Assembly: GCF_001468265.1 (NCBI RefSeq)
Contig: NZ_LNRZ01000009.1
Span: forward strand, 1 to 64,000
Direction of reading: 5' to 3'
DNA from: Sphingopyxis sp. H050
Lineage (GTDB): Bacteria > Pseudomonadota > Alphaproteobacteria > Sphingomonadales > Sphingomonadaceae
DNA length: 64,000 nt
The translations under genes and the position numbers were made by a program. Position 1 is the stretch's first letter; each line of letters opens with the position of its first letter. The notes under the pieces are model-generated. The model made no database searches. It saw only the letters and a list, made by a program, of their open reading frames with translations, and was not told where the DNA came from. Positions 38,125 through 58,224 of this stretch are shown here, piece after piece.

Positions 38125-38171
38125 GACTCTTAATCAGCGGGTCCTAGGTTCGAGCCCTAGTGCGTCCACCA
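38125..38171 (+). other. Attachment site: 3' half of tRNA-Lys(CUU)
   Basis: From the end of the anticodon stem onward the sequence reads as a tRNA: anticodon loop CTCTTAA (anticodon CTT), stem TCAGC, variable loop, T arm CCTAGGTTCGAGCCCTAG, acceptor TGCGTCC, discriminator A and CCA. The D arm and acceptor 5' strand are missing, and bases 38121-38124 no longer match a stem. It is therefore the 3' copy left by integration into a tRNA-Lys gene; the intact gene should lie left of the window. It marks the joint between the two islands. Confidence 0.75.
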
Positions 38172-40530: not shown

Positions 40531-40898
40531 CCGCCCGCGCCCAGACCGTGCGGCTCAATCCGTCGCAGCACCGCGTCCTGGCAGGGTTCGCCGCCAAGCG
40601 CGGATTAAGCGAATATGCGATGCTCGCCCGCATCGTCGATGCGGGCTTTGCCGCCATCCTGCATGGAGCCGACAAAGAGGCCGACACGCGCGAAATCGCC
40701 GCCGAGGTCGGGGTGATTTCTGAGCGTCTGGCGGAGGTCGAACGCGTGCTCGACCGCACGCTGTTCACCGCCTGCGCAGCCTACGCCTACGCCCGCCATT
40801 CCGCGCTCGGCACCCGCAAACCCGACGAGGTGATCGCCGCCGAAGCGCGCGCCGCCTTCGAGCGCCAGCGCTCGCTTGCCCTGGAGGTCGAACCATGA
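40527..40898 (+). CDS. Small relaxosome accessory protein (TrwA/MobC-like)
   Basis: The 123-residue product starts with VTARAQTVRLNPSQHRVLAGFAAKRGLSEYAMLARIVDAGFAAIL, a ribbon-helix-helix-like beginning, then a coiled helical part ISERLAEVERVLDRTLF. Starting at a GTG that overlaps the upstream stop puts the domain at the N-terminus. Its own stop overlaps the coupling-protein start (ATGA). In TrwC-type mobilization loci the gene before the coupling protein encodes the oriT-binding accessory protein, hence the call. Confidence 0.6.
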   Translation: MTARAQTVRLNPSQHRVLAGFAAKRGLSEYAMLARIVDAGFAAILHGADKEADTREIAAEVGVISERLAEVERVLDRTLFTACAAYAYARHSALGTRKPDEVIAAEARAAFERQRSLALEVEP

Positions 40899-42715
40899 CC
40901 CAGCCCCACGATTTCGCATCCCGGTCGCATTCGCTGTGGCGCATGCGCATGGCGCATTTTCAGCAGCGGTTCGGCTTCTTCTCCAAGCTCATTCTGGCCT
41001 GCACCGGGGCAGGTTCGATCATCTGGGCGCAGTTCACTTTGCCGGCCTGTGCGTGGACCGCTGCGGCCCAATGTCTTGGCGCCAAGCTGCTCCAGGTCTT
41101 CGCCGACATGGCCGGACAGGACATCAAGATGAATGTCGCGGTGGACGGCGAGAGGCTGACCGTTCCGGCGCGTGTTGTCGCCAGCCATCCGCTGTTTGCC
41201 GGGCCTTTCGATGCCGCGACAACGGCGCTGCTGATCGGGGCCTTGATGGGCCTCGTTTTGGGGGTGCTGACCGTCTGGCTGATCCAGCGCACCATGAAGA
41301 CACAGGGACAGGATACGCTCGCCGACCGGGTGCTCGGCGGCACCCGGCTTGTCGGCCAGGACGTGCTCGCCGTGCACATTACGGACCGCGCCGGAGCCCG
41401 CTCGCTGGCCATCGGCCCGGTGCCGATCCCGCGCGGAATCGAGACCCGGCATTTCGCCTTCCTCGGCACCACCGGCAGCGGCAAGACCACCGCCTTGCGG
41501 CAGATGCTCGACCGTATCGAAGCGCGCGGCGAAGCGGCGCTGGTCTATGACACCAGCGGCGAATTCATCGCCCATTATTACGACCCCGCGCGCGGCGACG
41601 TGATCCTCAATCCGTTCGACGCCCGCTGCGCATTCTGGTCGCCGTTCGACGAGATCGCCCACCCCGCCGATGCCGACCGCATCGCCCGGCAGCTCGTCTC
41701 CGAAACCGGCAGCCAGGACGACGATGTCTGGCTGGAGACGAGCCGCATCCTTGTCGCCAACATGCTCCGTTCGCTCTGGGCCGAGGGCAACTGCAATCTC
41801 GAAGCCCTGCTTGAAGCCTTGCAGGTCAAGAGCAAGGAGCAATTGAAGCACTGGCTCGGCCATACCTCGTCGGCGCGGACCTTCGCCGACGACGCCGACC
41901 GCGCCACCGGCAGCGTCCTGTTCATGCTCGCCAAGGCCGCCAACCTGATCCAGTTCCTGCGGGTCGAGGACGACGGCGCGGCGCGCTTCGCCTTCCGCGA
42001 GTTCATTGCCGGCCTGGACGCGCGGCCGGGCGCGAAACCGTGGATTTTCGTGCCGCGCAAGGAGGATTATTTCGAGGCCGCGAAGCCGCTTATGGCCTGC
42101 TGGCTCGAATGCGCGGCGAGCGCGGTGCTCGGCCTCTCGCCGTCGCCCGAGCGGCGCATCTGGTTCGTGCTCGACGAGCTGGCCGACCTGCCCCGCGTCG
42201 AGAACCTTGCCCGCCTGCTGCCCGAAGGCCGCAAGTTTGGCGCGGCCATCGTGCTGACCTTTCAGGCGCTGGGGCAGATGCGCAATCGCTACGGTGCGAA
42301 CATCGCTGAGGCCATGCTCGCCTGCTGCAATACCAAGCTGTTCCTCCAGACCGTCGACCGCGAAACGCGCCAGTGGGCGAGCCAGACCATCGGCGATTGC
42401 GAGGTCGAGATGCGTGTCGCGACCGACACGCTCGCCATGGGCAAGGACGCGCCGCGCACGACCATCGCCACCCAGCGCGCCTTCCGAGCCGCCGTGCTCG
42501 AAAGCGAGCTGCGGCTTGTCCCGCACCAAGGCTTTCTGCTGCTGCCCGATGGCCTGCCCGTGGCGCGCATCGCGCTGACCGCCGATCACATTGCGGCGCG
42601 CGGCCCCGCCCGTCAGCCCGCCTTCGTCGCCGGCGATCCGGCGGGGACATTGTGGAGCCGGGTGAGCGAGATCGCCAGGAGCGCTGCGCCCGATGCCAAA
42701 CCGGGACCGGTCTGA
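40895..42715 (+). CDS. Type IV coupling protein (TraD/TrwB family)
   Basis: The 606-residue product has N-terminal membrane helices at about 28-48 and 112-135, then an ATPase domain with Walker A FLGTTGSGKTTALRQ (about 190-204), AALVYDTSGEFIAHYYDP, and Walker B-like RIWFVLDELADLPRVENL followed by FGAAIVLTFQALGQMRNRYG. These are hallmarks of TraD/TrwB hexameric pumps linking relaxosome to a type IV channel. Its TGA shares a base with the relaxase ATG (TGATG). Since no mating-pair genes are visible, it would have to use a channel from another element. Confidence 0.92.
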   Translation: MTQPHDFASRSHSLWRMRMAHFQQRFGFFSKLILACTGAGSIIWAQFTLPACAWTAAAQCLGAKLLQVFADMAGQDIKMNVAVDGERLTVPARVVASHPLFAGPFDAATTALLIGALMGLVLGVLTVWLIQRTMKTQGQDTLADRVLGGTRLVGQDVLAVHITDRAGARSLAIGPVPIPRGIETRHFAFLGTTGSGKTTALRQMLDRIEARGEAALVYDTSGEFIAHYYDPARGDVILNPFDARCAFWSPFDEIAHPADADRIARQLVSETGSQDDDVWLETSRILVANMLRSLWAEGNCNLEALLEALQVKSKEQLKHWLGHTSSARTFADDADRATGSVLFMLAKAANLIQFLRVEDDGAARFAFREFIAGLDARPGAKPWIFVPRKEDYFEAAKPLMACWLECAASAVLGLSPSPERRIWFVLDELADLPRVENLARLLPEGRKFGAAIVLTFQALGQMRNRYGANIAEAMLACCNTKLFLQTVDRETRQWASQTIGDCEVEMRVATDTLAMGKDAPRTTIATQRAFRAAVLESELRLVPHQGFLLLPDGLPVARIALTADHIAARGPARQPAFVAGDPAGTLWSRVSEIARSAAPDAKPGPV

Positions 42716-45462
42716 TGGTCGCCTCGATTTCGGCACTGTCTAGCGCCGGCCAGGCGGCGAGCTACTACGAGGCCGACGACTATTATGCCGAAGGTGGCCT
42801 TGCCCCGTCCGAATGGTTCGGCGAGGCCGCGCAGGCGCTGGGCCTGTCGGGCGAGGTGGACCGCGAGCAGTTCGCCGCGCTGCTGGAGGGTCAAGTCGCC
42901 GGCCAGCAACTCGGCACTATCCGCGATGGCAAGATCGAGCACCGGCCCGGATGGGATATTACCCTGTCCGCGCCCAAGTCGGTTTCGATCATGGCCGAGG
43001 TCGCGGGCGACAAGCGGCTGATCGCCGCCCACGGCGCGGCGGTCAAAGTCGCGCTGGCCCATGTCGAGAAGCACATGGCCGCAACCCGCATCAGAGAAGG
43101 TGGCGAGGTCCGGCGCGAAACAACCGGCAATCTGGCCATCGCCACCTTCCGTCATGCGACGAGCCGCGCGCAGGACCCGCAGCTTCACACCCACGCCGTT
43201 GTCATCAACGCCACCCAGGACAAGGAGGGTGCTTGGCGCAGTCTGGAACCGCGCGCCTTCTACCAGCTCCAGAAGGAGATCGGCGCGATTTACCGGCAGG
43301 AGCTGGCGCACGGCGTTGCCAGGCTCGGTTACCGAATCGAGTCGGGCAAGGATGCGATGTTCGAGATTGCCGGCGTGCCCGACAAGGTCATCGACGCGCT
43401 GAGCCAGCGCACGGCGGCGATCGACGCCCGGCTTGCCGAGCGCGGCACAAACCGGGAGCAGGCGAGCGCCGCCGAAAAGCAGATCGCCGCGCTCGATACC
43501 CGCGCGGCCAAGACCCATGCCGATCATCGCGCGCTGCGCGCCGACTGGCGCGCGACTGCCGACGCGATGGGGTTCGACCAGGCGGGACGCGAAAGACTCG
43601 TCGCCGAGGCGCAGGCGCGCGCTCGGGACCTCGACACCGCCGCCAGCCCGGAATTGGTGGCGCGGCAGGCGGTGGCCTTTGCCGCCGCGAAGCTGGCCGA
43701 GCGCGAGGCGGTCTTTGCCGCGAGCACGCTTGCGCGCACGGCGGGCGACTTTGCCCTTGGCCGGATCGGGCATGACCACATCGGTGCGGCTATTGCGGAG
43801 GCCGAGACGCGCGGCGAGCTTGTGGTCCGCACGTTCCTTGACCGGCGCGGCGCGGAATTTTCCGGCTTCACTACCTCGCAGGCCATCGAGACCGAGCGCA
43901 CGATGCTGCGGCTCGAGACTGCCGGGCGCGGCGTAGCCGAGCCGCTGGCCAGCCCCATCACGGCAGCCCGAACGGTCGAGCGCGCCGCACGGCAATCGGC
44001 GCGAACCGGCTATGCCTGGACCGGGGACCAGAAGCGAGCGACTGCCGAGCTGCTGACCTCGCGGGATCGCGTCGCCGCCGTCCAGGGTTATGCCGGGACC
44101 GCCAAGACGACCACTGTGCTTGTCACCTATGCGCGCGAGGCGCAGCGGCGCGGCCTTGCGGTCACCGCGCTTGCGCCGACCGCATCGGCGGCCACCGTGC
44201 TGGGCGAAGCCCTTGGCTTGCGCGGCGACACCGTTGCCCGGCATCTGCTGACGCCGGAGTCTCGCCGCTCCGGCATGGATGCCGTCTGGATCGTCGATGA
44301 GGCCTCGCTGCTCTCCGCCTACGACATGGCCAAATTGATGGCCAGCGCCGACACGGCCGGTGCGCGGCTCGTCCTGGTGGGCGATGTGAAGCAGTTGGGC
44401 TCGGTTGGCGCAGGCGCTGCCTTCGCGCAGTTGCAGGAAGCGGGCATGGCCACCGCCAAGCTGGCCGAGGTGGTCCGCCAGACCAACGCCGAGACCCGCG
44501 AAGCCGTCATGGCATCGATCGAAGGCCACGCGGGCAAGGCGCTTGCTGCGCTGGAGCGCGGCGGCGGCAAGGTGATCGAGGCCCCCACGCCGGAGGAACG
44601 GCTTGCGGCCATAGCACGGCGCTACATCGCCTTGTCACCCGCCCAGCGCGCCCACACACTGGTCATCGAGCCCTCGCGCGACGGACGCGACAAGCTGACC
44701 GGCCTGATCCGTGAGCAGCTCGCGGCACGCGGGGAGCTTTCGGCGGACGCGCTCCGGTTTGCGGCGCTGGAGGCCAAAGGTCTGACGGGCGCCGAGGCGC
44801 GCGAGGCGGCGAGCTATGCCATTGGCGATGTTGTGCGGTTCAACCGGGATTATACCGCGAAAGCCGTGCTCCGGGGCGAAACCTTCACCGTCAGCACCGT
44901 CGATCCCGAGCGGGGCCGCGTTGCGCTGCAAGATAGCAAGGGCCGCGCGATCGATTGGCATCCCCGGCAATGGGGTGCGGGTAAGGTGGAGGTGTTCGAG
45001 GTCAGGCCGATGGAACTCCGGACCGGCGACCGCGTGCAATTCACCCGCAACGACCGCGATGCGGACCGGATCAACGGCCTTGGCGCAACCGTCACCAGCA
45101 TCGATACGGCCGCGAACCGGGCGACGGTGAAGCTGGCGAACGGGCGCGAGCAGCGGCTCGACCTCTCCGATCCTCGCGACGCACATCTTCGCCATGTCTA
45201 TGTGCAGACCGCCCACGCCGCGCAGGGCCAGACCGCCGAGCGAGTGCTGATCCACGCCGACAGCCGCTCGACCAATCTGGTCGACCAGAAGATGCTGTAT
45301 GTCGCGCTCTCGCGCGCCAGGGCCGAGGCGATTGTCGTGACCGACGACAAGGACCGGCTTGTCCGCGCGATTTACGAGCGTGCGGGCGAAAAGCAGACCG
45401 CCATGTCTGCGACTGTGCCGGAACCCGCCAAGTCGAAGGCGATGGATGCCGGGATCGGCTGA
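42715..45462 (+). CDS. MobF conjugative relaxase-helicase (TrwC/TraI)
   Basis: The 915-residue product has paired candidate catalytic tyrosines (Y17-Y18 and Y23-Y24), WDITLSAPKSVSI (about 80-92) and the metal-binding histidines H147, H158 and H160 (RHATSRAQDPQLHTHAVVIN). A RecD-like helicase follows: Walker A AVQGYAGTAKTTTVL near 455-470, Walker B WIVDEASLLS near 523-532, and a C-terminal helicase motif HAAQGQTAERVLIHADSRST with YVALSRARAEA. It nicks oriT and unwinds DNA for transfer. I chose the ATG overlapping the coupling-protein stop; an upstream frame extension runs through that gene. Confidence 0.93.
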   Translation: MVASISALSSAGQAASYYEADDYYAEGGLAPSEWFGEAAQALGLSGEVDREQFAALLEGQVAGQQLGTIRDGKIEHRPGWDITLSAPKSVSIMAEVAGDKRLIAAHGAAVKVALAHVEKHMAATRIREGGEVRRETTGNLAIATFRHATSRAQDPQLHTHAVVINATQDKEGAWRSLEPRAFYQLQKEIGAIYRQELAHGVARLGYRIESGKDAMFEIAGVPDKVIDALSQRTAAIDARLAERGTNREQASAAEKQIAALDTRAAKTHADHRALRADWRATADAMGFDQAGRERLVAEAQARARDLDTAASPELVARQAVAFAAAKLAEREAVFAASTLARTAGDFALGRIGHDHIGAAIAEAETRGELVVRTFLDRRGAEFSGFTTSQAIETERTMLRLETAGRGVAEPLASPITAARTVERAARQSARTGYAWTGDQKRATAELLTSRDRVAAVQGYAGTAKTTTVLVTYAREAQRRGLAVTALAPTASAATVLGEALGLRGDTVARHLLTPESRRSGMDAVWIVDEASLLSAYDMAKLMASADTAGARLVLVGDVKQLGSVGAGAAFAQLQEAGMATAKLAEVVRQTNAETREAVMASIEGHAGKALAALERGGGKVIEAPTPEERLAAIARRYIALSPAQRAHTLVIEPSRDGRDKLTGLIREQLAARGELSADALRFAALEAKGLTGAEAREAASYAIGDVVRFNRDYTAKAVLRGETFTVSTVDPERGRVALQDSKGRAIDWHPRQWGAGKVEVFEVRPMELRTGDRVQFTRNDRDADRINGLGATVTSIDTAANRATVKLANGREQRLDLSDPRDAHLRHVYVQTAHAAQGQTAERVLIHADSRSTNLVDQKMLYVALSRARAEAIVVTDDKDRLVRAIYERAGEKQTAMSATVPEPAKSKAMDAGIG

Positions 45463-45651
45463 CGGCATGACCGGCGGCCTGCTCCCCACCACATTAAGGA
45501 AAGTTATCTTCCGCTGTGGCATGATGACCGCGCGGCCATAATTCAGCTATGGCTATGTTCCTGTCTGCGGGGGGAATCGACCGCTGGACTTTCCCGAACC
45601 AGTGCGATGCCCCGCATCCATTGGGCGTATGAGATTTGGAAGCGCGATCGA

Positions 45652-48432
45652 ATGAATGCTGTCGAGATTGAGGAAGCGGTTTCCGCACTGGCCGAGCAGC
45701 CATTCGACGCCGACGAGTTTCCGTTCCAGTTCCTGACTGCCTTCGGGAACAAGGACACCACGATCAAGCGCCTGCGCGCGGGCGCGTCAAACAAGTCCGA
45801 TATCGGCGGCGTCCTGCAAACCAACAACATCCACCTTGCCACAGCCGCACCGGGCGCGGTCACCCAGACCCTCGCCGCCCTCAAAGCCAGCCCGGCGACC
45901 GCAAGGGCCAAGGCCAAGTTCGTGCTCGCCAGCGATGGCGACAGCTTCGAGGCCGAGGATCTTGAATCGGGCGAGACGCTCGCTTGCGACTACGCCGATT
46001 TCCCGAACCACTTCGGCTTCTTTCTCCCGCTGGCCGGGATCACCACCGTCAAGCAGGTCCGCGAGAGCAGCTTCGACATTCGGGCCACGAGCCGCCTCAA
46101 CCGGCTCTATGTCGAGCTGCTGAAGGACAACCCCGATTGGGGCACCGCCGAGCGCCGCCCCGACATGAACCACTTCATGGCCCGGCTGATCTTCTGCTTC
46201 TTCGCCGAAGACACCGACATCTTCCATCGTAGCTACCGCTTCACCGACACGGTGGAGAAGATGAGCGAGCGGGACTCGTCGAACACCCATGAGGTGATCA
46301 GCGAGTTGTTCCGGGCGATGAACACCAAGATCGCCGACCGGAAGGAGGCCGGGATTGCCCGCTGGGCCGACCCGTTCCCCTATGTGAACGGAGAACTCTT
46401 CTCCGGCAGCATCGAGGTCCCACGCTTCAGCCGCATCGCCCGGTCCTATCTGCTCCACATCGGCAGCCTCGACTGGACCAGGATCAACCCGGACATTTTC
46501 GGGTCGATGATTCAGGCCGTCGCCGATGACGAGGAGCGCGGCGCGCTGGGGATGCACTACACCAGCGTTCCCAACATCCTGAAAGTGCTCAATCCGCTCT
46601 TTCTCGACGACCTGCGGGAAAAGCTGGCGGAAGCGGGCGACAATCCGCGCAAGCTGCTGAACCTGCGCAACCGCATGGCGAAAATTCGCGTGTTCGACCC
46701 GGCCTGCGGCAGCGGCAATTTCCTCGTCATCGCCTACAAGCAGATGCGGGAGATCGAAGCCGAGATTAACCGGCGGCGCGGCGAGGCAAGCCGCAAGTCC
46801 GATATTCCGCTCACCAATTTTCGCGGCATCGAGCTGCGGGACTTCCCCGCCGAGGTGGCGCGGCTCGCGCTTATCATCGCCGAGTTCCAGTGCGACGTTC
46901 TCTATCGCGGCCAACAGCTCGCCTTGAACGAGTTCCTGCCGCTCAACGCCGAAAACTGGATTACCTGCGGCAACGCGCTTCGGCTCGACTGGCTCAGCAT
47001 TTGCCCGCCCACGGGGACCGGCGTGAAACTGGTCGGGGACGATCTGTTCGCCACGCCGCTCGATCAGGCGCAAATCGACTTCGAGAACGAAGGCGGCGAA
47101 ACGTATATTTGCGGAAACCCGCCGTACCTGGGCGCTAAGTGGCAAAATAGTGAGCAAAAATCCGAGCTGCAGGGCATCTTCGAACACAGAACAAAAAGTT
47201 GGAAGTCGCTCGATTATGTGGCTGGATGGTTCATGAAAGCGGCAGACTATGGCACGCGGACCGACTCTGCGGCAGCCTTCGTGTCCACGAACTCTATCTG
47301 CCAAGGTCAGCAAGTGCCAATTCTATGGCCACTCATTTTCGAGACTGATCATGAAATTTTCTTTGCGCACACATCATTTCGATGGGCAAACCTGGCGAGT
47401 AACAACGCCGGCGTCACCGTTGCCATCGTGGGAATCTCAAGACGCCCCATTAACGTCCGACGTTTGTTTTCAATATCTGATGAGGGAGAGTTAATCGAGC
47501 GGGGAGTTGGCTTCATCAATGCCTACCTAATTGCTGGCCCCAACACGGTAGTCGAACAAGCGCGGAGTCCGATCGCGGGGACCTCACCGATGTTGTTCGG
47601 TAATATGCCGCGTGACGGCGGGAGCTTTATTCTGAGTGGCGACGAGCGGGTTAGGACGCTCAGCGATTTCCCCGACCTCGATCGGTTTATCCGACCATAT
47701 TTTGGTTCTGAGGAGATGATCCAAGGGAAGCGCCGGTGGTGTTTCTGGATTGAGGATGCTGAGCTTGCCGCTGCAAGAGAACATCCGCATCTGAAAGCCG
47801 TCATGAGCAAAGTCGAACAGTTCAGGCTATCAAGCGGAGCTGGCTCTACGCGCGACTTTGCGGCTCACCCCCATCGATTCGTGCAGATCGCTGGAACCGC
47901 CGTCCAACACTCTCTTGTCGTAGCGAAGGTATCATCGGAGAAAAGACCATACATTCCTATTGATTTGCTCGGCGGTGACGCGATCGCTAGCGACCTACTA
48001 TTTGCGCTTTATGATGCACCACTATTTAACCTCGCCCTAATTGCATCGCGTCTGCATCTTGTCTGGATCGCGACCGTCTGTGGCAAGCTGGAAACCCGAT
48101 ACCGCTATTCGAACACGCTGGGCTGGAACACCTTTCCGGTGCCCACGCTGACCGATAAGAACAGGGATGACCTGACCCGCTGCGCAGAGGACATTTTGCT
48201 CGCGCGCGAGGCGCATTTCCCCGCCACCATTGCCGACCTCTACGATCCCGAGGCGATGCCCGCCGATCTGCGCGAAGCCCATGAGCGCAACGACGAGGTG
48301 CTGGAGCGCATATATATCGGGCGGCGATTCAAGAACGACACCGAGCGGCTGGAAAAGCTGTTCGAACTATACACCAAGATGACCGCTGGATCGGGGACGA
48401 CCAAGAAGCGGAAGGCGGGGGCGAGCGCGTGA
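45652..48432 (+). CDS. MmeI-like class I adenine-specific DNA methyltransferase
   Basis: The product is 926 residues from the ATG after GGAAG; an upstream ATG would add 15. SAM motif I FDPACGSGNFLVIAY lies at about 348-362 and the amino-methyltransferase motif ICGNPPYLGAKW at about 486-497, so N6-adenine methylation is expected. N-terminal FVLASDGDSFEAEDLESGETL and HFGFFLPLAGI, and the C-terminal GWNTFPVP, resemble MmeI-family proteins, with a target-recognition region between. I see no clear D-x9-ExK nuclease motif at the N-terminus. It is GTGA-coupled to the helicase gene, so cleavage may be done by partner proteins. Confidence 0.85.
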   Translation: MNAVEIEEAVSALAEQPFDADEFPFQFLTAFGNKDTTIKRLRAGASNKSDIGGVLQTNNIHLATAAPGAVTQTLAALKASPATARAKAKFVLASDGDSFEAEDLESGETLACDYADFPNHFGFFLPLAGITTVKQVRESSFDIRATSRLNRLYVELLKDNPDWGTAERRPDMNHFMARLIFCFFAEDTDIFHRSYRFTDTVEKMSERDSSNTHEVISELFRAMNTKIADRKEAGIARWADPFPYVNGELFSGSIEVPRFSRIARSYLLHIGSLDWTRINPDIFGSMIQAVADDEERGALGMHYTSVPNILKVLNPLFLDDLREKLAEAGDNPRKLLNLRNRMAKIRVFDPACGSGNFLVIAYKQMREIEAEINRRRGEASRKSDIPLTNFRGIELRDFPAEVARLALIIAEFQCDVLYRGQQLALNEFLPLNAENWITCGNALRLDWLSICPPTGTGVKLVGDDLFATPLDQAQIDFENEGGETYICGNPPYLGAKWQNSEQKSELQGIFEHRTKSWKSLDYVAGWFMKAADYGTRTDSAAAFVSTNSICQGQQVPILWPLIFETDHEIFFAHTSFRWANLASNNAGVTVAIVGISRRPINVRRLFSISDEGELIERGVGFINAYLIAGPNTVVEQARSPIAGTSPMLFGNMPRDGGSFILSGDERVRTLSDFPDLDRFIRPYFGSEEMIQGKRRWCFWIEDAELAAAREHPHLKAVMSKVEQFRLSSGAGSTRDFAAHPHRFVQIAGTAVQHSLVVAKVSSEKRPYIPIDLLGGDAIASDLLFALYDAPLFNLALIASRLHLVWIATVCGKLETRYRYSNTLGWNTFPVPTLTDKNRDDLTRCAEDILLAREAHFPATIADLYDPEAMPADLREAHERNDEVLERIYIGRRFKNDTERLEKLFELYTKMTAGSGTTKKRKAGASA

Positions 48433-50507
48433 CCATCCACAAGAAGAATGTTCCATCCGTTTCGGTATCCTACGCCCGCAACGGCAATTCCGCGAAGTCC
48501 AATGCCCTCGGCATGCGGCCGATGCAGGAGCGCGCTTACGAGAAGCGCGGCGAGCAATATCTGCTTATCAAGTCGCCGCCAGCCTCGGGCAAGAGCCGCG
48601 CGCTCATGTTCATTGCGCTCGACAAGCTGGCCAACCAAGGCTTGAAGCAGGCCATCATCGTCGTGCCGGAAAAGAGCATCGGCTCCAGCTTCGCCGACGA
48701 GCCGCTGACCCGGTTCGGCTTTTGGGCCGACTGGACCGTGGCCCCGAAATGGAACCTCTGCAACGCGCCGGGCGAGGACGGGGGCAAGGTCAACAGCGTC
48801 GGCAGCTTCCTTGCCAGCGATGACAAGGTGCTGGTCTGCACCCACGCCACGTTCCGGTTCGCGGTGGAGCGGTTCGGCATCGAAGCCTTCGATGGCCGAC
48901 TGATCGCGGTGGACGAGTTCCACCATGTTTCCGTAGGCGAGGACAACAAGTTGGGTCGGCAGTTGGGCGAGCTTATCGCCCGCGACAGGGTGCATATCGT
49001 CGCCATGACCGGCAGCTATTTCCGGGGCGACGCCGAAGCCGTGCTCGCCCCCGGCGACGAGGCGAAGTTCGATACCGTCACCTATACCTACTATGAGCAG
49101 CTCAACGGCTACGAGTATCTAAAGCAGCTCGACATCGGTTATTTCTTCTATTCCGGCTCCTACACCGACGATATTCTCGCGGTGCTAGACCCGGCCGAGA
49201 AGACCATCATCCACATTCCCAACGTCAATTCGCGCGAGAGCACAAAGGACAAAATCAGGGAGGTGGAGCACATCATCGAGGAGCTGGGTGATTGGCAGGG
49301 GGCCGACCCGGCTACCGGATTCCAGCTTGTGAAAACCGAAGATGGCCGGACGCTGCGCATTGCCGACCTGGTCGACGACGACCCAACCAAGCGCGACCGC
49401 GTTTCCGCCGCGCTCAAGGACCCGGCTCAGAAGAACAACCGTGATCATGTCGACATCATCATCGCCCTTGGCATGGCCAAGGAAGGCTTCGACTGGATTT
49501 GGTGCGAACACGCGCTGACCGTCGGCTATCGCGCCAGTCTGACCGAGATCGTGCAGATCATCGGCCGCGCGACCCGCGATGCACCGGGCAAGACTCGCGC
49601 GCGTTTCACCAACCTGATCGCCGAGCCCGATGCTTCCGAGTCCGCCGTAACCGAAGCGGTCAACGACACCCTCAAGGCTATCGCCGCGAGCCTGCTCATG
49701 GAGCAGGTGCTGGCGCCGCGCTTCAACTTCACGCCCAAGAATCCGCAGAGCGGCCCTGCGCCCGGCTTCGATTACGGCGACGAAGGATACCAGCCCGACA
49801 AATGCAATGTCGGCTTCAACGGGCAGACCGGCCAGTTCCAGATCGAGATCAGGGGCCTTGTCGAACCCAAGAGCGAGCAGGCCGCGCGCATCTGCAAGGA
49901 GGATTTGAACGAGGTGATTGCCACCTTCGTTCAGGACAAGGCTGCGATCGAGCGCGGGCTGTTCGACGAGGAGCTGGTGCCCGAGGAGCTGACCCAGCTT
50001 CGCCTGGGCAAGATCATCAAGGACAAATACCCCGAGCTGGACGAGGAGGATCAGGAGGCCGTGCGCCAGCACGCCATCGCCGCCCTCAATCTCACCCAGC
50101 AGGCCGCGCGCATCGCGCTTGGCGACGACAAGAAGGCGAACGGTGGCGATGATTCCGAACCGAGCGTCAACACCGCGCTGATCGACGGCGTGCGCAAGTT
50201 CGCGATGGACGTGCGCGAGCTGGACATCGACCTGATCGACCGCATCAATCCGTTCCAGGAAGCCTATGCGATCCTCGCCAAAACCATGAGCGAGGACAGC
50301 CTGAAACAGGTCGCCGCCGCAATTTCCGCCAAGCGCACCACAATGTCGCCCGAAGAGGCCAAAGACCTTGCGGTGCGCGCGGCGCGCTTCATCAAGGAAC
50401 GGGAGCGGCCACCGTCCATCACGTCGTCCGACGCGTGGGAACGCCGGTTGGCCGAAGGCGCCGCCGCCTTCATGCGATACAAGAAAGAGGGCCGCTATGA
50501 CGGATGA
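48429..50507 (+). CDS. Superfamily 2 DEAD/DEAH-type helicase
   Basis: The 692-residue product has Walker A KSPPASGKSRALM (48-60), Walker B LIAVDEFHH (158-166), motif III-like VAMTGSYFRG, and C-terminal motif VI IVQIIGRATRD (about 373-383). The C-terminal 250 residues are helical and acidic with no recognised family. The GTG start overlaps the methyltransferase stop and the end overlaps the nuclease gene by 11 bases. It is likely the translocase or DNA-remodelling part of a restriction-like complex with its two neighbours. Confidence 0.85.
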   Translation: MTIHKKNVPSVSVSYARNGNSAKSNALGMRPMQERAYEKRGEQYLLIKSPPASGKSRALMFIALDKLANQGLKQAIIVVPEKSIGSSFADEPLTRFGFWADWTVAPKWNLCNAPGEDGGKVNSVGSFLASDDKVLVCTHATFRFAVERFGIEAFDGRLIAVDEFHHVSVGEDNKLGRQLGELIARDRVHIVAMTGSYFRGDAEAVLAPGDEAKFDTVTYTYYEQLNGYEYLKQLDIGYFFYSGSYTDDILAVLDPAEKTIIHIPNVNSRESTKDKIREVEHIIEELGDWQGADPATGFQLVKTEDGRTLRIADLVDDDPTKRDRVSAALKDPAQKNNRDHVDIIIALGMAKEGFDWIWCEHALTVGYRASLTEIVQIIGRATRDAPGKTRARFTNLIAEPDASESAVTEAVNDTLKAIAASLLMEQVLAPRFNFTPKNPQSGPAPGFDYGDEGYQPDKCNVGFNGQTGQFQIEIRGLVEPKSEQAARICKEDLNEVIATFVQDKAAIERGLFDEELVPEELTQLRLGKIIKDKYPELDEEDQEAVRQHAIAALNLTQQAARIALGDDKKANGGDDSEPSVNTALIDGVRKFAMDVRELDIDLIDRINPFQEAYAILAKTMSEDSLKQVAAAISAKRTTMSPEEAKDLAVRAARFIKERERPPSITSSDAWERRLAEGAAAFMRYKKEGRYDG

Positions 50508-51720
50508 CCTCGATCTCGATGCCCTCGCCCACGCCCTCGCCGACTTCGCTCCGCCCGAGACGAAGGTCGGGCGCGGCCCGCGCGAGGAGCGCATCATCGC
50601 CGGATTTGAAGAGATCCAGCGATTTGTCGAGCAGCATGGCCACGCGCCGCGTCATGGCGAAGGCCGCGACATCTTCGAGCGCCTCTATGCCACGCGCCTC
50701 GACCGACTGCGCGCGCTGGAGGATTGCCGCGCGCTGTTGGAGCCGCTGGACCATCAGAGCCTGCTCGCCGGTGGCGAAGCCGAGGCCGCTGCCCCGGTCG
50801 AGGACATAGACACCGACGCGCTGCTGGCCGAGCTGGAGGGCGCGCTTGGCCCGTCCGACATTTCCGACCTCCGCCATGTCCGCACGGCAGATGAAAAGCG
50901 CGCTGCCGAGGAAATCGCCAATCGCGAGAAATGCGAGGACTTCGAGAGGTTCAAGCCGCTGTTCGAGCAGGTGCAACACGATTTGGATTCCAGACTTCGC
51001 GAGACCCGTCCCATCGTGAAGGACGCGGGTTTCCTCAAAGCCGATATCACCCAGGGTCAGTTTTTCATCCTTGGCGGGCAGGTTGCCTATGTCGCCGAGG
51101 TTGGCGAGACAATTACCGCGCCCAACGGAGAAACAGACGCCCGACTGCGCGTCATCTATTCCAATGGCACCGAGAGCAACTTGCTTCGCCGCTCGCTCCA
51201 GAGGGCGCTATATAAAGACGACGCCGGGCGGCGGATAACCGAACCGGAGGCTGGGCCGCTGTTTGTCCGGGAAGAGCGTTCGCCCTTCTCTGGGCAATCC
51301 GGGGAAGATGACCTCGCCAGCGGCACGATCTACGTCCTGCGCAGCAAGTCCGACCACCCGCTGGTCGCGGCCAACCGGGACGTGTTGCACAAGATCGGCG
51401 TGACCGGCGGCGACGTGGCCAGACGCCTGGCCAACTGCAAGCTGGACCCGACCTTCCTGATGGCCGACGTGGAAATCGTCGCCACCTACACGCTCTACAA
51501 CATCAACCGCGTGAAGCTCGAAAACCTGATCCACCGTATCTTCGATCCGGCGCGGCTCGACATCGAGATCAAGGACCGTTTCGGCCTCCCCGTCATCCCG
51601 CGCGAATGGTTTCTCGTGCCGCGCTTCGTGGTTGACGATGCTGTCGAGAAGATCAGGGACGGCACGATCACCGAGTTCTCCTACGATCCGAAACTGGCGC
51701 GTCTGGTTCGACGCGCATGA
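50497..51720 (+). CDS. GIY-YIG nuclease family protein (T5orf172-like)
   Basis: The 407-residue product has a helical, acidic N-terminal half (about 1-180) and a C-terminal GIY-YIG fold: GTIYVLRSKS (276-285), LHKIGVTGGDVARRLANC with the conserved Arg, and the Glu-bearing KLENLIHRIF (near 341-350), followed by PREWFLVP. This pattern fits the T5orf172 subgroup. It overlaps the helicase gene and completes a methyltransferase-helicase-nuclease operon. It is the most likely DNA-cutting subunit. Confidence 0.82.
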   Translation: MTDDLDLDALAHALADFAPPETKVGRGPREERIIAGFEEIQRFVEQHGHAPRHGEGRDIFERLYATRLDRLRALEDCRALLEPLDHQSLLAGGEAEAAAPVEDIDTDALLAELEGALGPSDISDLRHVRTADEKRAAEEIANREKCEDFERFKPLFEQVQHDLDSRLRETRPIVKDAGFLKADITQGQFFILGGQVAYVAEVGETITAPNGETDARLRVIYSNGTESNLLRRSLQRALYKDDAGRRITEPEAGPLFVREERSPFSGQSGEDDLASGTIYVLRSKSDHPLVAANRDVLHKIGVTGGDVARRLANCKLDPTFLMADVEIVATYTLYNINRVKLENLIHRIFDPARLDIEIKDRFGLPVIPREWFLVPRFVVDDAVEKIRDGTITEFSYDPKLARLVRRA

Positions 51721-51743: not shown

Positions 51744-53090
51744 GTGCTCGACCAAATGTTCACTGCGGAAAATTTCCGCCGCATCTATGACGCCGAGAAC
51801 CGTAAGGGGCTCGACTTGGCGAGCCGCTATTTTCCGACGCTTGAACCGCTGACCCTCGCGGTTCGTGACAAGGTGCAGGACATTCGCGATCATCGCGCGC
51901 TCGAAGCAACGATGGCAGCCGATGTCTTCGAGGCGATGCTGGTCACACTGAAAACCGAACTCGCCGCCTTGAAGGCCGACAAGTCAGCGGCCGTCGATGT
52001 CCTCATGGATGACATCAGCCAGAAGGTCCTCATGCCGGGCTTCAAGATCGAGCTGTCACAGAAGACCGGGCCACAGGGAAAGCCGGTCTACTGCATCGAC
52101 GCGGAGCCCGAGACCTTCTTCGTGATCAAGCAGCTCCAACGAAACATCCACCGCATTTACGGTGTGAAACAGGCAAACCGGCAGGACCTAGTATGCCAGC
52201 TTCGGGACATGCTTAACAGCAGCTTTCCTTTCGAGCTGGTCCGTACCGATATCTCGTCGTTCTATGAGAGCATTGACCGCAAGCGCCTGATCGAGAAGCT
52301 AGATCGCGATCAGCTGTTGAGCCCCGCATCGAAGAAATACATCAAGCAGGTGCTGGACTCCTACGGCGTGAAATCCGGCGCGGCGAAGGGTGTTCCGCGT
52401 GGTGTCGGAATCAGCGCTTATCTGGCCGAGCTGTATTTGCGACCGGTCGATAACGCGATCCGGACAATTCCCGGCATGGTTCTCTACTGCCGGTTTGTAG
52501 ATGATATCGTCGCAGTTTTTGCCCGACCGCCAGCAGGCAATAGCCTCGGTTCGTTCAAGGACCGGATCATCGCCATATTTGGTGATAACGCCCTCACGCA
52601 CAACCCGGCAAAAACGCATGAATTCGCGTTGGCCGATCCTGCTCCCAAGGCCTTTGAGTATCTGGGCTATCGTCTCAGCCTGACCGGCACGAAATTCGAG
52701 ATTGGCCCGAGCGCGGCGAAGGTCGATAAATATCGCACACGAATGAATGCCGCGTTCGAGGCCTACTGGGAGCGGCGTCCGCTTGGTCCAAGGCGCGCGT
52801 ACCGGGAGCTTGTTGCGCGCATCAAGTTCTTGACGGGCAACACGCGCCTTTCAAACAGCAAGTCGCGGGCCGCCACCGGCATCTATTACAACAATTCAAT
52901 CGCAACCGACCTGTCGAGCTTCGATCAGCTCGACAAAGAGCTGAAGGTGCTTGTCGACGCGCTCAAGAGCAGCAGCCTACAAAAGCAATTGAAGAAGCTG
53001 AAGTTCTCGACCGGATTTGTGCAGCGCCGCTATCACAATTTCAGCACGAGAGAGTTGCAGATGATCGTGAAGGCCTGGAAACATGGCTAA
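51744..53090 (+). CDS. drt3a: Reverse transcriptase, candidate Drt3a of a DRT type 3 system
   Basis: The 448-residue RT has motif A RTDISSFYESID (catalytic D169), motif B KGVPRGVGISAYLAELYL (215-232) and motif C CRFVDDIVAVF (D253-D254). It has no maturase or endonuclease domain, so it is not a standard group II intron RT. It lies upstream of a second, longer RT in overlapping frames, the arrangement of DRT type 3 (a UG3-group RT followed by a UG8-group RT). I chose GTG after GGGGGG; an ATG four codons on is an alternative. It begins 23 bases after the nuclease stop and may belong to the same transcript. Confidence 0.8.
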   Translation: MLDQMFTAENFRRIYDAENRKGLDLASRYFPTLEPLTLAVRDKVQDIRDHRALEATMAADVFEAMLVTLKTELAALKADKSAAVDVLMDDISQKVLMPGFKIELSQKTGPQGKPVYCIDAEPETFFVIKQLQRNIHRIYGVKQANRQDLVCQLRDMLNSSFPFELVRTDISSFYESIDRKRLIEKLDRDQLLSPASKKYIKQVLDSYGVKSGAAKGVPRGVGISAYLAELYLRPVDNAIRTIPGMVLYCRFVDDIVAVFARPPAGNSLGSFKDRIIAIFGDNALTHNPAKTHEFALADPAPKAFEYLGYRLSLTGTKFEIGPSAAKVDKYRTRMNAAFEAYWERRPLGPRRAYRELVARIKFLTGNTRLSNSKSRAATGIYYNNSIATDLSSFDQLDKELKVLVDALKSSSLQKQLKKLKFSTGFVQRRYHNFSTRELQMIVKAWKHG

Positions 53091-55155
53091 GCGGCGCGTC
53101 TCTCTCACCCATCGAAAACAACGATCAGTTCTCACGGACATGTTGCCCTTTGAGGTGCCACCAACCTTTTCCAATCGGGGCTACTACCGTTTCCTGCGCG
53201 ACAACAGCATCGAGATCGAAAACGGTCAGTTGCGCTGGATTTGCGAGACGGATGCCCTGGATCGGACGATGCGGCTTCTGTTCGGCATCGATCCCTCCGC
53301 CGATATCACCCCTGAGGTCGTGACCGAGTGGGGTAAGCAGAAAGCCCGCAGATCGGTCCCTCTCAAAAAATGCAAGATGGCGACCATGCCTTTCAATTTC
53401 CGTGTCGCCCACAATCTTGACGGCCGGACCTTGAGCGTCGTGCATCCGCGCAATCAGGTCGAGGTGGCAAGCTTTTATGCCACCCACAGCGCGCTGATCA
53501 TCTATCACACTTCCGTAAGCGAGTTTTCAATCCGCCGCCCGGTTTCGGTGTCGCGCTATGCCTACTTCAAGGACAAGCTCCATGAAGAGCGGCTTGATTC
53601 CGTCGCCGGGCTGGAGGAAGAGGATCGCGAGTACGAGCAGCTCGGCTCCTATTTCGTGTATCGGAAATACCGGAACATCCACCGCTTCTTTGAATCGTAC
53701 AAATACCACCGCAGCGAGAAAAAGTACGATGCGATGGTGCAGATCGACGTGAGCAAGTGCTTCGACAGCATCTATACCCACTCGCTTCCTTGGGCCGTGC
53801 TGGGCAAGGACCAGACGAAATTCAGCCTCGATGCCTCAAAGGGCACCTTCGGCGGACGTTTCGACGCCCTTATGCAGAACCTGAATCACAAAGAGACCAA
53901 CGGCATCGTCATCGGCCCCGAGTTCTCGCGGATTTTTGCCGAGATCATTTTGCAATCGGTCGATTCAGAGCTGATTAGGCAGTTGGCAGAAGGGGCCAAT
54001 CTGACCCACAAGGTCGATTACGAAATCTTCCGGTACGTCGATGACTTCTTCGTTTTCTACAACGAGGAGTCCACCCAGCTTAAGATTTTCGAGACGCTTC
54101 AGGACATCCTGAAGGGCAAAAAACTCAGCATCAACACGGCCAAGATCAAGCATTACCAGAAGCCGATCATCACCGAAATCACGATCGCCAAGGAACGCAT
54201 CTCGGCCCTTCTGAATGCCGAGATCGATCCAGCTTGCGAGGAGGAGCCCCTGGCCGATCCGACCAAGCCTCCCAAGCAAAAGCTGGTCTGCTCAATCAAC
54301 GCAAACCGCCTGATCATCCGGTACAAGGCCGCGATCAAGGAGGCAGGCGTCACCTATGGCGACCTGTTGAACTACACGTTCGCAATCACCGAGAACAAGA
54401 TCGAGAAGCTCTTCAAGGCCTATGTCGCCAGCGACAAGTCAGACCGCGACCGCAAACGTCTCTCCAACGCATTGCTGGCCATCATGGAGTTTGCCTTTTT
54501 CGCGTACTCGGCCAGCCCAAAGGTCAATCACACCATCCGCCTATGCCGGATGATCGCGACTTCGGTGGATTTTCTGCACGCTCAGGGCCTGCCCTACGAG
54601 CAGAAACACCTGCTCTTTAAGTATGTCCACGACAATGTGATGCAGCAGCTCGAAAAGAACACGATGAGCGTTCATCGCGAGGTCGAGAGTCTCTATCTTC
54701 TCATCGCACTGCCGCAGATTGGCCGGGAATATTGGTTGCCAGTCTCCGTCCTTCTCCGGCATTTCCTGATTAAAGAGGAAGAGAACACGGGAAATTACAT
54801 TCGCCCCACGGGGTTCATGAATCACTTCTCCGTCACGATCCTGCTTTCCTACATCAAAGACAAGGTCCGGTATGCGAAGCTGAAAATTTTCATCGAGGCG
54901 CATATCATCGCCAAGCTCGAATACATGAAGGCCCATTGCCCCGATGACGCCGAGACACTGATCATGCTTCTCGACCTCGTCGTCTGCCCTTATATCAGCG
55001 CTGCAACCAAGGATGCCATAGGGCTGATTTTCAAGCTGGATGCAGCAGGCCTGGCATCTGTTCAGGCCGCCAACGATCACTGGTTTACCGCTTGGGGCGA
55101 TAAATTCGATCTCGGGAAGGAGCTGGACGCAAAGCGCAGCCGTGAGGTATACTGA
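53083..55155 (+). CDS. drt3b: Reverse transcriptase, candidate Drt3b of a DRT type 3 system
   Basis: The 690-residue RT has motif A QIDVSKCFDSIYTHSLPW (D222), motif B NGIVIGPEFSRIFAEIIL (273-290) and motif C FRYVDDFFVFY (D320-D321). A long alpha-helical C-terminal domain of about 300 residues follows, as in defence-associated RTs of the unknown groups. The ATG lies eight bases inside the first RT gene, so translation is coupled. Length and gene order fit Drt3b. Just downstream lies a foldable non-coding segment with a CACACACA tract. Assignment rests on architecture; a phylogeny would decide it. Confidence 0.8.
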   Translation: MAKRRVSLTHRKQRSVLTDMLPFEVPPTFSNRGYYRFLRDNSIEIENGQLRWICETDALDRTMRLLFGIDPSADITPEVVTEWGKQKARRSVPLKKCKMATMPFNFRVAHNLDGRTLSVVHPRNQVEVASFYATHSALIIYHTSVSEFSIRRPVSVSRYAYFKDKLHEERLDSVAGLEEEDREYEQLGSYFVYRKYRNIHRFFESYKYHRSEKKYDAMVQIDVSKCFDSIYTHSLPWAVLGKDQTKFSLDASKGTFGGRFDALMQNLNHKETNGIVIGPEFSRIFAEIILQSVDSELIRQLAEGANLTHKVDYEIFRYVDDFFVFYNEESTQLKIFETLQDILKGKKLSINTAKIKHYQKPIITEITIAKERISALLNAEIDPACEEEPLADPTKPPKQKLVCSINANRLIIRYKAAIKEAGVTYGDLLNYTFAITENKIEKLFKAYVASDKSDRDRKRLSNALLAIMEFAFFAYSASPKVNHTIRLCRMIATSVDFLHAQGLPYEQKHLLFKYVHDNVMQQLEKNTMSVHREVESLYLLIALPQIGREYWLPVSVLLRHFLIKEEENTGNYIRPTGFMNHFSVTILLSYIKDKVRYAKLKIFIEAHIIAKLEYMKAHCPDDAETLIMLLDLVVCPYISAATKDAIGLIFKLDAAGLASVQAANDHWFTAWGDKFDLGKELDAKRSREVY

Positions 55156-55160
55156 GCTCG

Positions 55161-55260
55161 GCGCTCCGCTTTACCCGTAATGGCTGTTGGCAGCCCACAC
55201 ACAAGCGCCCTCTCTTCTCCTATATCAATTGGGGGTTGGGTAATCAGGCGGTAGGAGCGG
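55161..55260 (+). ncRNA. Candidate ncRNA of the DRT system
   Basis: Directly after the second RT gene, three stems nest correctly: outer CGCTCC (55162-55167) with GGAGCG (55254-55259), middle TTACCC (55171-55176) with GGGTAA (55238-55243), and inner hairpin GGCTG-TTGG-CAGCC (55182-55195). CACACACA (55196-55203) follows the inner hairpin and is unpaired in this fold. DRT type 3 includes an ncRNA; I recall reports that this family makes alternating GT/AC repeat DNA from an ACACAC-type template, which I could not check here. No gene is supported between 55156 and 55562. The ends given are those of the outer stem only. Confidence 0.55.
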
Positions 55261-55522
55261 GCCGTCTCACCCACAAGACTGACTCCCTCGCTGCTGTCCG
55301 TGTTTGCTCGGCTCTAGTCGGTACGCTGTCGATTCCGGTCGTCACGCTCATCTTGTCGAGCAGCCGCGAATGTGACGGGCCTCGTTCGTGGATTCACTGG
55401 CTTGGCTAGGTCGGGCGTCAATCGCGGGCGCTTCCGCACTTCGTTTGTGCAGCTTCCCCTTCGGGCGGCCTCCAGCCGGCATGACCCCGCGACCTCTTGG
55501 CCGCGCCCTGTTCTCCACATCG

Positions 55523-56927: not shown

Positions 56928-57324
56928 CTTGGCATCGGCTCGTCCAGCGTATCACAAGATCCGATTCCTTTGCTTTGATATATACTTGCCCGGCGTCCCC
57001 TTCGGGCCGGGCTGTATCGCTGGCGCGACGGAACCCGCGACGCGGTTTCCGCCCATGCGGGTTGCCATCCCTGACGCGGCATAGGGCGGCTTCGCGCGCC
57101 CTGCATTGAGCGCCGCCAGCAGCGTGGCCTTTTCCTGTTTCGAGGAAGAAAGAGGCTCTGCCTCTCTCTCCCTGCAAGGTGCCGCTTTGGGGCCGTGGCT
57201 CACTTTGTTGCGCCCGCACCACCCCCGGCACCGGACCTTGCTCCCTCTCTCTCCGCCCCTCGCCGGGTCGGCAGGGGTCATGCGCGGCACGACCCGCTGC
57301 GCGGATTGGAAGGGAGTAAGGACG
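56928..57324. other. Intergenic region upstream of the ArdC gene
   Basis: No gene is supported. Two hairpins are present: GCCCGGC (56988-56994) with GCCGGGC (57006-57012), and AGAGGC-TCT-GCCTCT (57151-57165). One frame continuous with ArdC is open upstream, but its translation is not protein-like. The second hairpin may be a control site for ArdC. Confidence 0.4.
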
Positions 57325-58224
57325 ATGACCAAGCAAGACCCCCAGACCCGCATCACCGACCGTATTCTGGCCGAGCTTGCGCAGGGCACCCGCCCTTGGG
57401 CGAAACCGTGGAGCGGCGGCGACATGGCAGCGGGGCAGACCCGTCCTTTGCGCGCCACCGGCCAGCCCTATCGCGGGATCAATGTCCTGCTCTTGTGGAT
57501 CGAGGCCCAGGCGTCCGGCTTTGTCAGCCCGTCATGGATGACCTACCGCCAAGCGCAGGCCTTGGGCGCGCAGGTGCGCAAGGGCGAGCGCGGCGCAGCC
57601 GTGGTTTACTACGGCGACAGCAGCAAGACCGTGCGCGACGAGACCAGCGGCGAGGACCGGGAACAGGCGTTCCGGTTCCTGAAAACCTACACCGTGTTTA
57701 ACGTCGCGCAGATCGACGGCTTGCCCGAGCGGTTCCATATCGTGCCCGAACCCGCGCCGGAGGTGGAACGCATCGCTGCCGCCGAGGCGTTCTTTGCCAG
57801 CATCCCCGCGACCGTGAACCACGGCGGCGACAAGGCCTATTACACGCCGTCGGCCGACCGCATCCAGCTTCCGCCCTTCGCGGCGTTCCACGACGCCCAT
57901 GGATATTACACCACGAGGGGCCATGAGACCGTCCATTGGACTCGCCACGAGAGCCGATTGAACCGCAGCTTCGGCCGCGAGAAATGGGGCGACGAAGGCT
58001 ATGCCCGCGAGGAACTGGTTGCCGAGCTGGGCGCGGCGTTCCTCGCCGCCGATCTTGGGCTTTGCATCGAGCCGCGCCCCGACCATGCCAGCTACATCGC
58101 CAGCTGGATCAAGGTGCTGCAGGACGACACCCGCGCCATCGTACAAGCCGCCGCTCACGCCGAGCGCGCGGTAGCCTACCTGCACCAACTGGCGAACGGC
58201 GAGGCGGTGAAGGAGGCGGCATGA
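57325..58224 (+). CDS. ardC: ArdC-like antirestriction protein
   Basis: The 299-residue product has the N-terminal ssDNA-binding domain (ITDRILAELAQGTRPWAKPW; GQPYRGINVLLLW; WMTYRQAQALGAQVRKGERGAAVVYYG; FRFLKTYTVFNVAQIDGL) and a C-terminal zincin-like domain with metalloprotease motif HETVHWT and downstream AREELVAELGAAFLAADLG, whose Glu can be a metal ligand. ArdC protects incoming single-stranded plasmid DNA from host restriction. GGAAGGGAGTAAGG precedes the ATG. It fits a mobilizable element entering new hosts. Confidence 0.87.
   Translation: MTKQDPQTRITDRILAELAQGTRPWAKPWSGGDMAAGQTRPLRATGQPYRGINVLLLWIEAQASGFVSPSWMTYRQAQALGAQVRKGERGAAVVYYGDSSKTVRDETSGEDREQAFRFLKTYTVFNVAQIDGLPERFHIVPEPAPEVERIAAAEAFFASIPATVNHGGDKAYYTPSADRIQLPPFAAFHDAHGYYTTRGHETVHWTRHESRLNRSFGREKWGDEGYAREELVAELGAAFLAADLGLCIEPRPDHASYIASWIKVLQDDTRAIVQAAAHAERAVAYLHQLANGEAVKEAA

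Follow-up and report, generated by a model that had tools for sequence, protein, structure and literature searches.

The window analysed here, the first 64,000 nucleotides (nt) of contig NZ_LNRZ01000009.1 from Sphingopyxis sp. H050, carries two overlapping reverse transcriptase (RT) genes followed directly by a short structured non-coding RNA (ncRNA), together constituting a locus of the DRT3 type. Its features are as follows, with coordinates of the window and + for the forward strand; related loci bear L numbers and genomes G numbers throughout.

51744-53090, + strand: drt3a, an RT of the UG3 class, 448 residues, GTG start, motif RFVDD; PADLOC profile PDLC03768 (E=2.3e-121), Protein Data Bank (PDB) chain 9z6y_A (E=6.5e-25)
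53083-55155, + strand: drt3b, an RT of the UG8 class with a helical-repeat region, 690 residues, motif RYVDD; PADLOC profile PDLC03784 (E=2.9e-200), PDB chain 26cz_A (E=3.9e-70)
55124-55153, + strand: promoter-like site for the ncRNA, TGGACG (55124-55129), 18 nt, TATACT (55148-55153), overlapping the Val-Tyr-stop codons of drt3b
55160-55268, + strand: DRT3 ncRNA of about 109 nt, with putative ends and helices P1 (55160-55165/55204-55209), P2 (55182-55186/55191-55195), P3 (about 55212-55240) and P4 (55246-55251/55262-55267)
55166-55172, + strand: pseudoknot strand 1, CCGCTTT, just 3' of the P1 5' strand, pairing with the P4 loop
55196-55203, + strand: putative Drt3a template CACACACA, flanked by the 3' strand of P2 and the 3' strand of P1; ACACACA is invariant in an alignment of 34 loci (A1)
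55254-55260, + strand: pseudoknot strand 2, GGAGCGG, in the P4 loop

The two open reading frames (ORFs) overlap by eight bases with drt3a first, both contain RVT_1, and Pfam searches at E up to 0.1 recovered no maturase or endonuclease domain from either, nor any further RT among the window ORFs scanned. Against the PADLOC profiles the first ORF scores 404 bits as Drt3a versus 105 bits for the next class (UG17), and the second 665 bits as Drt3b versus 156 bits for Drt6; group II intron, retron and diversity-generating retroelement (DGR) classes, of which PADLOC holds few models, are the best profile for neither. The top PDB sequence matches are solved DRT3 chains, namely 9z6y_A for Drt3a, then 26cz_A and 9z6y_H (E=2.3e-60). 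In an alignment of 19 sequences (A2) the Drt3b residues E24, R115, D222, R283, YVDD 318-321 and Y690 correspond to E22, R71, D182, R241, YVDD and Y666 of the Escherichia coli system (EcoDRT3), with D222, D320 and D321 as the catalytic Asp set and Y690, the final residue, as an invariant Tyr. The E. coli locus L051 encodes a 667-residue Drt3b with Glu22 in PYE, Arg241 in GPEFSR and a penultimate Tyr666, a numbering that fits the available part of PMC13174585 and by which PDB 26cz is probably EcoDRT3. AlphaFold2 (AF2) models of Drt3a and Drt3b have mean predicted local distance difference test (pLDDT) scores of 89.8 and 84.9, and the latter shows an RT domain followed from about residue 407 by a mostly helical region. 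An adjacent Drt3a ORF is present at 69 of 75 Drt3b loci. The sequence-only reading of this DNA, which had described overlapping RT genes of 448 and 690 residues with intact catalytic Asp pairs, free of maturase and endonuclease domains and arranged as in DRT type 3, is borne out by the profiles, solved-chain matches, gene order, diagnostic residues and downstream ACACAC ncRNA. Neither outcome that it had named as counting against it arose: both RTs score far above every other RT model, and the pair recurs in related loci. On sequence grounds we regard the DRT3 identity of the locus as secure.

The ncRNA begins immediately past drt3b, its ACACAC lying in a loop beside a stem and its template 40 nt beyond the stop codon. 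Conservation in A1 sets in no more than about 5 nt past the drt3b stop and extends for about 110 nt, and in loci matched through the RNA the blastn similarity of the cassette spans 51745 to 55265-55278. The span 51744-55260 previously assigned to the system takes in most of the RNA (in 55156-55260) and misses its end, since the ncRNA continues to about 55268. For a four-helix structure of 31 pairs drawn by hand, 88.4% of the cells in A1 are paired, a share that drops to 36-52% when the structure is slid along the alignment, and 19 of the 31 pairs show double-sided change versus 8.0 (standard deviation 1.5) in shuffled alignments, none of 500 shuffles being as good. RNAalifold predicts 27 pairs, 14 of them with double-sided change. 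From the 34 loci we built a covariance model (CM; R1), which recognizes the RNA in L044, L048, L045 and L037/L049 (E=3e-14 to 9e-5) and weakly in L036 (0.0064), with no match at E up to 1 in L032, L038-L043, L047, L050 and L051. Run on a second set, of 24 sources, the model matches 13 times with E no higher than 0.1 (L108 and L109 included) and misses L054 and L058; the matches in L036, L055 and L057 are weak (0.0056-0.072), that in L057 lying on the minus strand and probably being due to chance. By eye, L054 (6122-6250) carries an ncRNA lacking the P2 hairpin, yet with ACACACACA within P1.

Beyond the nested helices, the P1 loop and the P4 loop appear to be tied by a pseudoknot, for which 99.6% of the cells are paired in A1; a register scan gives 0.995 for the pseudoknot register and at most 0.775 for every other. 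In L044, L045, L048 and L108 both strands have clearly different letters with pairing kept over 5-8 bases, and in L109, where few letters have changed, the strands pair over 6 bases. When the strands of six groups are exchanged, the true pairing comes out lowest in total energy among 720 permutations, and for the four most divergent groups it ranks first of 24; shuffles of one strand are as good in 1.8-3.8% of cases in four of the six. By eye, L054 has no clear pseudoknot and L049 is ambiguous; neither entered the permutations.

The site resembling a promoter lies within the last codons of drt3b, and the P1 5' end (55160) falls 7 nt past its -10 hexamer. Counted over ORFs scoring above 880 bits (L107, whose protein is identical to that of L003, and L030 excluded), 35 of 36 loci use GTA for the penultimate Val, with 4.5 expected from the 12% share of GTA among Val codons in these ORFs, and TATACT or TATATT is likewise present in 35 of 36 versus a background of 0.28% of positions. 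A spacer of 18 nt gives the best upstream hexamer in 36/36. Among nine lower-scoring rows of the window's branch, outside this count, seven have GTA and two (L036 and L055) GTT. As the window holds five promoter-like sites, this one among them, versus 2.8 expected, we place the weight on the codon constraint.

We surveyed the family in 34 loci of the genome_contigs set, eight plasmid and three E. coli regions, whole-genome searches and 54 loci of the viral_contigs set, keeping 84 Drt3b ORFs above 380 bits (the next scores were at most 145 bits) after removal of the duplicates L035, L105 and L113. Drt3b was called intact where a Tyr occurs in the last five residues, as in 78 of the 84, the six others (L026, L030, L050, L072, L073 and L074) being left out; conservation of this Tyr in the 78 is therefore by construction, and its independent support is alignment A2. 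The loci are not independent, several being near-copies. ACACAC or CACACA occurs within 300 nt downstream in all 78 intact loci, compared with 7.4 expected, two on the reverse strand and seven in an intra-operon control. The gate corresponding to Glu24 is E in 69, D in six and in a missing region in three, and the Arg283 equivalent is R in 78/78. Alternative output, in the form of an intact Drt3b lacking (AC)3 or having other gates, was found in none of the 78. Scanning viral_contigs with the L048 Drt3b brought in nothing beyond L105, a duplicate of L054. Counting the window's genome in each sample, Drt3b is present in 5 of 385 alphaproteobacterial genomes (class sample), 2 of 398 (phylum sample) and 8 of 396 (order sample), and in 2 of 300 genomes from the order of G765, itself counted. 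The Drt3b of G970, of the same genus as the window, is identical to that of Sphingopyxis sp. L1A2A. Several individual loci stand out: the Drt3b of L047 has RYVDN in place of RYVDD with gates, C-terminal Tyr and template intact; G1397 harbors two divergent DRT3 loci (L114 and L115); and the neighbors of DRT3 in L050 and L051 are an integrase gene together with ogr/Delta and polarity-suppression genes, recalling P4-like satellites.

A tree of 75 Drt3b proteins (L037, L076 and L077 of the 78 being too short) is divided by a branch of length 1.2, with a Shimodaira-Hasegawa-like approximate likelihood ratio test (SH-aLRT) value of 100, into 46 rows, the window included, and 29; it was made by a quick method that places long branches, L032, L038 and L043 among them, unsurely. 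The window's branch comprises Alpha-, Beta- and Gammaproteobacteria, one locus from Actinomycetota (L032) and a single plasmid from Bacteroidota (L038), both of these long-branched; the solved-structure types that could be placed (L051/L058 and L064-L066) fall on the other, long branch. The template lies 24-67 nt from the stop on the window's branch versus 75-261 nt on the other, with EcoDRT3-type templates (L050, L051, L058) at 91-128 nt. The median position of Drt3a motif C is residue 249 in 43 proteins of the window's branch versus 194 in 26 of the other, medians being used because some start codons are plainly miscalled (L005, L007, L031, L046, L055, L057 and L110). In the AF2 model this shift corresponds to an additional hairpin of two N-terminal helices (about residues 31-51 and 59-96), unaligned in long-branch Drt3a, and Drt3b of the window's branch has extra residues between about 40 and 100. 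PADLOC's two Drt3b models split seven tested proteins, the window's included, along the same line, and the pseudoknotted RNA and the GTA promoter-like box are features of the core of the window's branch. Sequence drift within a single architecture, giving a compact/long split of no functional meaning in what would be plain DRT3, could also underlie these differences, and template, gate and primer residues are indeed alike on both branches. The CM misses L032, L038 and L054 of its own branch, so that the RNA is not uniform there. Nonetheless, the split coincides with one well-supported branch and at once with the Drt3a motif shift, the Drt3b insertion and the template distance, and the compact CM fails on the EcoDRT3-type RNAs of L050, L051 and L058; we hold drift alone to be unlikely, if still a serious contender.

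Upon the genes, their residues, the RNA covariation, the promoter-like codon constraint and the nuclease genes of the hosts, all of which can be read directly in the sequences, the following working may be proposed, with its chemistry borrowed from the E. coli mechanism set out in the available part of PMC13174585. The genes drt3a and drt3b would be made from an upstream transcript and the ncRNA started by the promoter within the 3' end of drt3b. The RNA would fold into P1-P2-P3-P4 with the pseudoknot tying the P1 loop to the P4 loop, and Drt3a would bind it and copy CACACACA repeatedly into poly(dTdG), with P2, by analogy, perhaps bounding the template on its 5' side. Drt3b, with Tyr690 as its primer and Glu24 (for dA) and Arg283 (for dC) as its gates, would make poly(dCdA) in the absence of a nucleic acid template, and the strands would anneal into GT/AC duplex DNA. 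By analogy, AddAB in place of RecBCD could keep this duplex low until a phage blocks AddAB, and such a block of the host nuclease would cause the infected cell to stop growing (abortive infection).

The analogy with E. coli, where the available text of PMC13174585 describes DRT3 as toxic without RecBCD, has a direct bearing on the hosts. We searched 39 host genomes for RecC and AddB, and six of them also for AddA. RecC matches occur in 14, 12 of them over the cut-off, and AddB_alphas is over the cut-off in 20 others, the window's genome included; four of the remaining five have sub-cut-off AddB and AddA matches only, and G050 has a piece of AddA at a contig end. The window's genome encodes AddA and AddB, both over the cut-off and adjacent on contig C3, with no RecC match and no RecB over the cut-off, and thus lacks the RecBCD that the guard model requires of its host, a property of the host and not one that defines DRT3. 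Close cassettes live in both RecBCD and AddAB hosts, and the host counts show only that much; hosts without RecC offer a sharp test of the RecBCD-guard model. AddAB is the functional counterpart of RecBCD. In AddAB hosts the duplex might instead be tolerated and the system triggered otherwise, for instance by perturbed transcription: the window's genome and 19 further hosts have AddB over the cut-off without a RecC match, and the available part of PMC13174585 reports a dependence on GreA and discusses a trigger linked to RNA polymerase. We consider this doubtful, though not to be set aside lightly, in light of that counterpart role and of the RecC match or over-cut-off AddB found in 34 of the 39 hosts, a proportion that may hold for most bacteria.

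Taking these lines together, we propose that the locus is very probably a functional DRT3 anti-phage system, its function predicted from its likeness to the E. coli one, belonging to a second subtype with a compact RNA. A more inclusive reading would be that DRT3 comprises two subtypes with one frozen product; that the pseudoknotted, telomerase-RNA-like ncRNA (about 110 nt) of the compact subtype owes its transcription to a promoter with its -10 box in the codons of the priming Tyr of Drt3b, locking primer codon, stop codon and RNA promoter together; and that the cassette moves between RecBCD and AddAB hosts, so that the guard would be a generic double-stranded DNA helicase-nuclease and not RecBCD itself. 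We advance this only tentatively, as somewhat short of an even chance, and a little less confidently because L032, L038 and L054, three rows on the window's branch, lie outside the RNA model. Against the reading of the locus as a functional compact-RNA DRT3 system stand the same three rows and several further points. The ncRNA region has no Rfam match at the gathering threshold, and the ends at 55160 and about 55268 are inferred. Within A1 only one pair of the pseudoknot shows double-sided change, the permutation support comes from six hand-extracted groups, and for the window's own strand and that of L109 about 14-15% of shuffles are as good. The promoter-like site has a weak upstream hexamer, scoring 3-5 of 6, a leader element known from relatives is absent upstream of the window's drt3a, and identity to EcoDRT3 is about 28% for both Drt3a and Drt3b over the aligned parts. 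The locus by itself is a new member of a known family, and the interest lies in the compact-RNA subtype, whose small RNA and protein set may be easier to study. This subtype is undescribed in the text examined of PMC13174585 and PMC13314766, the main text of which, as available, makes no mention of a pseudoknot, of AddAB or of any Alphaproteo- word; Mestre et al. 2022, Gao et al. 2020 and Deng et al. 2026 lie outside this comparison. Section 7 of PMC13314766, a 2026 review, lists in its available part the spread of DRT3, subtypes with other motif outputs and natural active-site variants of Drt3b as open. Our survey bears on these points with two branches differing in RNA and protein build, no other output, and gate variation limited to E or D.

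The leader element just mentioned, GAATCAAATGGAATGA, lies 25-27 nt ahead of the drt3a start in 16 of 28 relatives (L022, L027, L013 and others), presence being scored at 11 or more of 16 letters for a motif picked from those relatives themselves. Since the window lacks it, expression of drt3ab would rely on the upstream operon or on an unseen promoter. The leader as a conserved promoter was considered and rejected, being absent from the window. Loss of a native leader with the RTs intact might mark a decaying or silent passenger, as might the GTG start and the broken state of several relatives, including L008, with drt3a interrupted by an insertion, L005 and L014, with drt3a truncated or missing (no intact Drt3a ORF in L014), L030, with a truncated drt3b, and L037, with drt3b as two ORFs. 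Such a passenger is improbable, however, when set against Nei-Gojobori (NG86) ratios of non-synonymous to synonymous substitution (dN/dS) versus four relatives (L025, whose sequence contains an N, left out) of 0.105-0.142 for Drt3a and 0.052-0.067 for Drt3b, which indicate purifying selection on a maintained locus and not a chance ORF pair, against a conserved ncRNA with its own promoter-like site, and against the 23 nt gap between the end of the preceding ORF and the drt3a start, which makes read-through plausible. The probability that the two RTs are of some other class (group II intron, retron, DGR or a different UG group) and lie side by side incidentally is negligible: the leading fold matches of the Drt3a model are indeed G2L4, DRT9 and retron RTs (those of the Drt3b model being DRT4, DRT6, UG15, Abi-P2 and AbiK), from a library ending 8 April 2026 in which no DRT3 entry is among the best 50 matches listed for either model, but the profile gaps given above are wide, and the pair, its order and its ncRNA recur.

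The compact DRT3 locus is carried by an element that extends beyond the window:

38126-64000 and on past the window: integrative mobilizable element with DRT3, 26.3 kb, at tRNA-Lys, with 46-bp repeats at its ends
40895-42715, + strand: TrwB-type coupling protein
42373-45462, + strand: ORF of a TrwC/MOBF relaxase, the true start probably later
45607-48432, + strand: MmeI-like type IIG enzyme
48429-50507, + strand: DEAD-box helicase
50368-51720, + strand: MUG113/T5orf172 protein
57106-58224: ArdC-type anti-restriction protein, sharing the element with the type IIG restriction enzyme
62891-64183 (end outside the window), - strand: element integrase, 430 residues

The perfect 46-bp repeats, at 38126-38171 and, outside the window on the same contig, 64396-64441, are the 3' end of tRNA-Lys(CTT), an intact gene for which lies on another contig. 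The element also encodes a serine recombinase and two RepB/ParB-like genes, and a Sphingopyxis indica plasmid has similar transfer genes (71% over 85%); since the ORFs scanned within the element include no mating-pair genes, we call it mobilizable, a carriage that the sequence-only reading had already suggested and that the gene content supports. Its further suggestion that such carriage would widen the known spread of DRT3 did not hold, given that PLSDB already has four alphaproteobacterial plasmids with drt3a/drt3b labels and that the class sample contains the five genomes noted above. An integrase of 56% identity lies at 36625-37917 and a 28-bp partial repeat at 74831-74858 of the same contig, pointing to probable tandem islands that flank the DRT3 element on either side at tRNA-Lys 3' repeats. 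The MmeI-like, helicase and T5orf172 genes probably represent a defence-island neighborhood and not a part of DRT3. The helicase and the T5orf172 protein as DRT3 components are not favored: blastn finds both in only 3 of 34 related loci (L003, L010 and L019), about 26 of which have at least 3 kb of upstream sequence, and for most of the loci the MmeI-like gene would fall outside the flank covered. A tblastn search adds one far-related locus (L054 with its copy L105; 37-44% identity) with both genes before DRT3, and the common cassette runs from the drt3a start to the ncRNA end.

Among characterized systems, EcoDRT3, with a 667-residue Drt3b of the L051/L058 kind and known here from the available part of PMC13174585, the preprint by Wang et al. 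2026, shares with the window the gene order, the two catalytic RTs, the downstream ACACAC ncRNA, the equivalents of E22, R71, D182, R241, YVDD and Y666, and the C-terminal Tyr. It differs in that its 398-residue Drt3a lacks the N-terminal hairpin of the window's 448-residue protein, its Drt3b lacks the insertion present after the E gate in the window, its template lies 128 nt past the stop in place of 40, its RNA is missed by the compact CM, and it is restrained by the RecBCD of its E. coli host. The Drt3a and Drt3b of PDB 9z6y/9z6z (Drt3b of 650 residues; of L064-L066 type by a shared N-terminal motif) belong to the same two-RT family; L064-L066, which fall on the long branch of the tree, have the C-terminal Tyr and gate residues seen in the window. 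The paper behind these structures is presumably Deng et al. 2026. The DRT10 ncRNA and telomerase RNA, as compared in the available part of PMC12632851, similarly place a short repeat template beside a stem-loop, the suggested 5' boundary, and yield a tandem-repeat product; however, DRT10 has one RT and a poorly conserved template region that is not ACACAC, and the resemblance is one of topology, not membership. DRT2, from what is available of PMC12039810, likewise sets a pseudoknotted ncRNA next to a defence RT, but assembles a toxic repetitive gene using one RT and no dinucleotide template.

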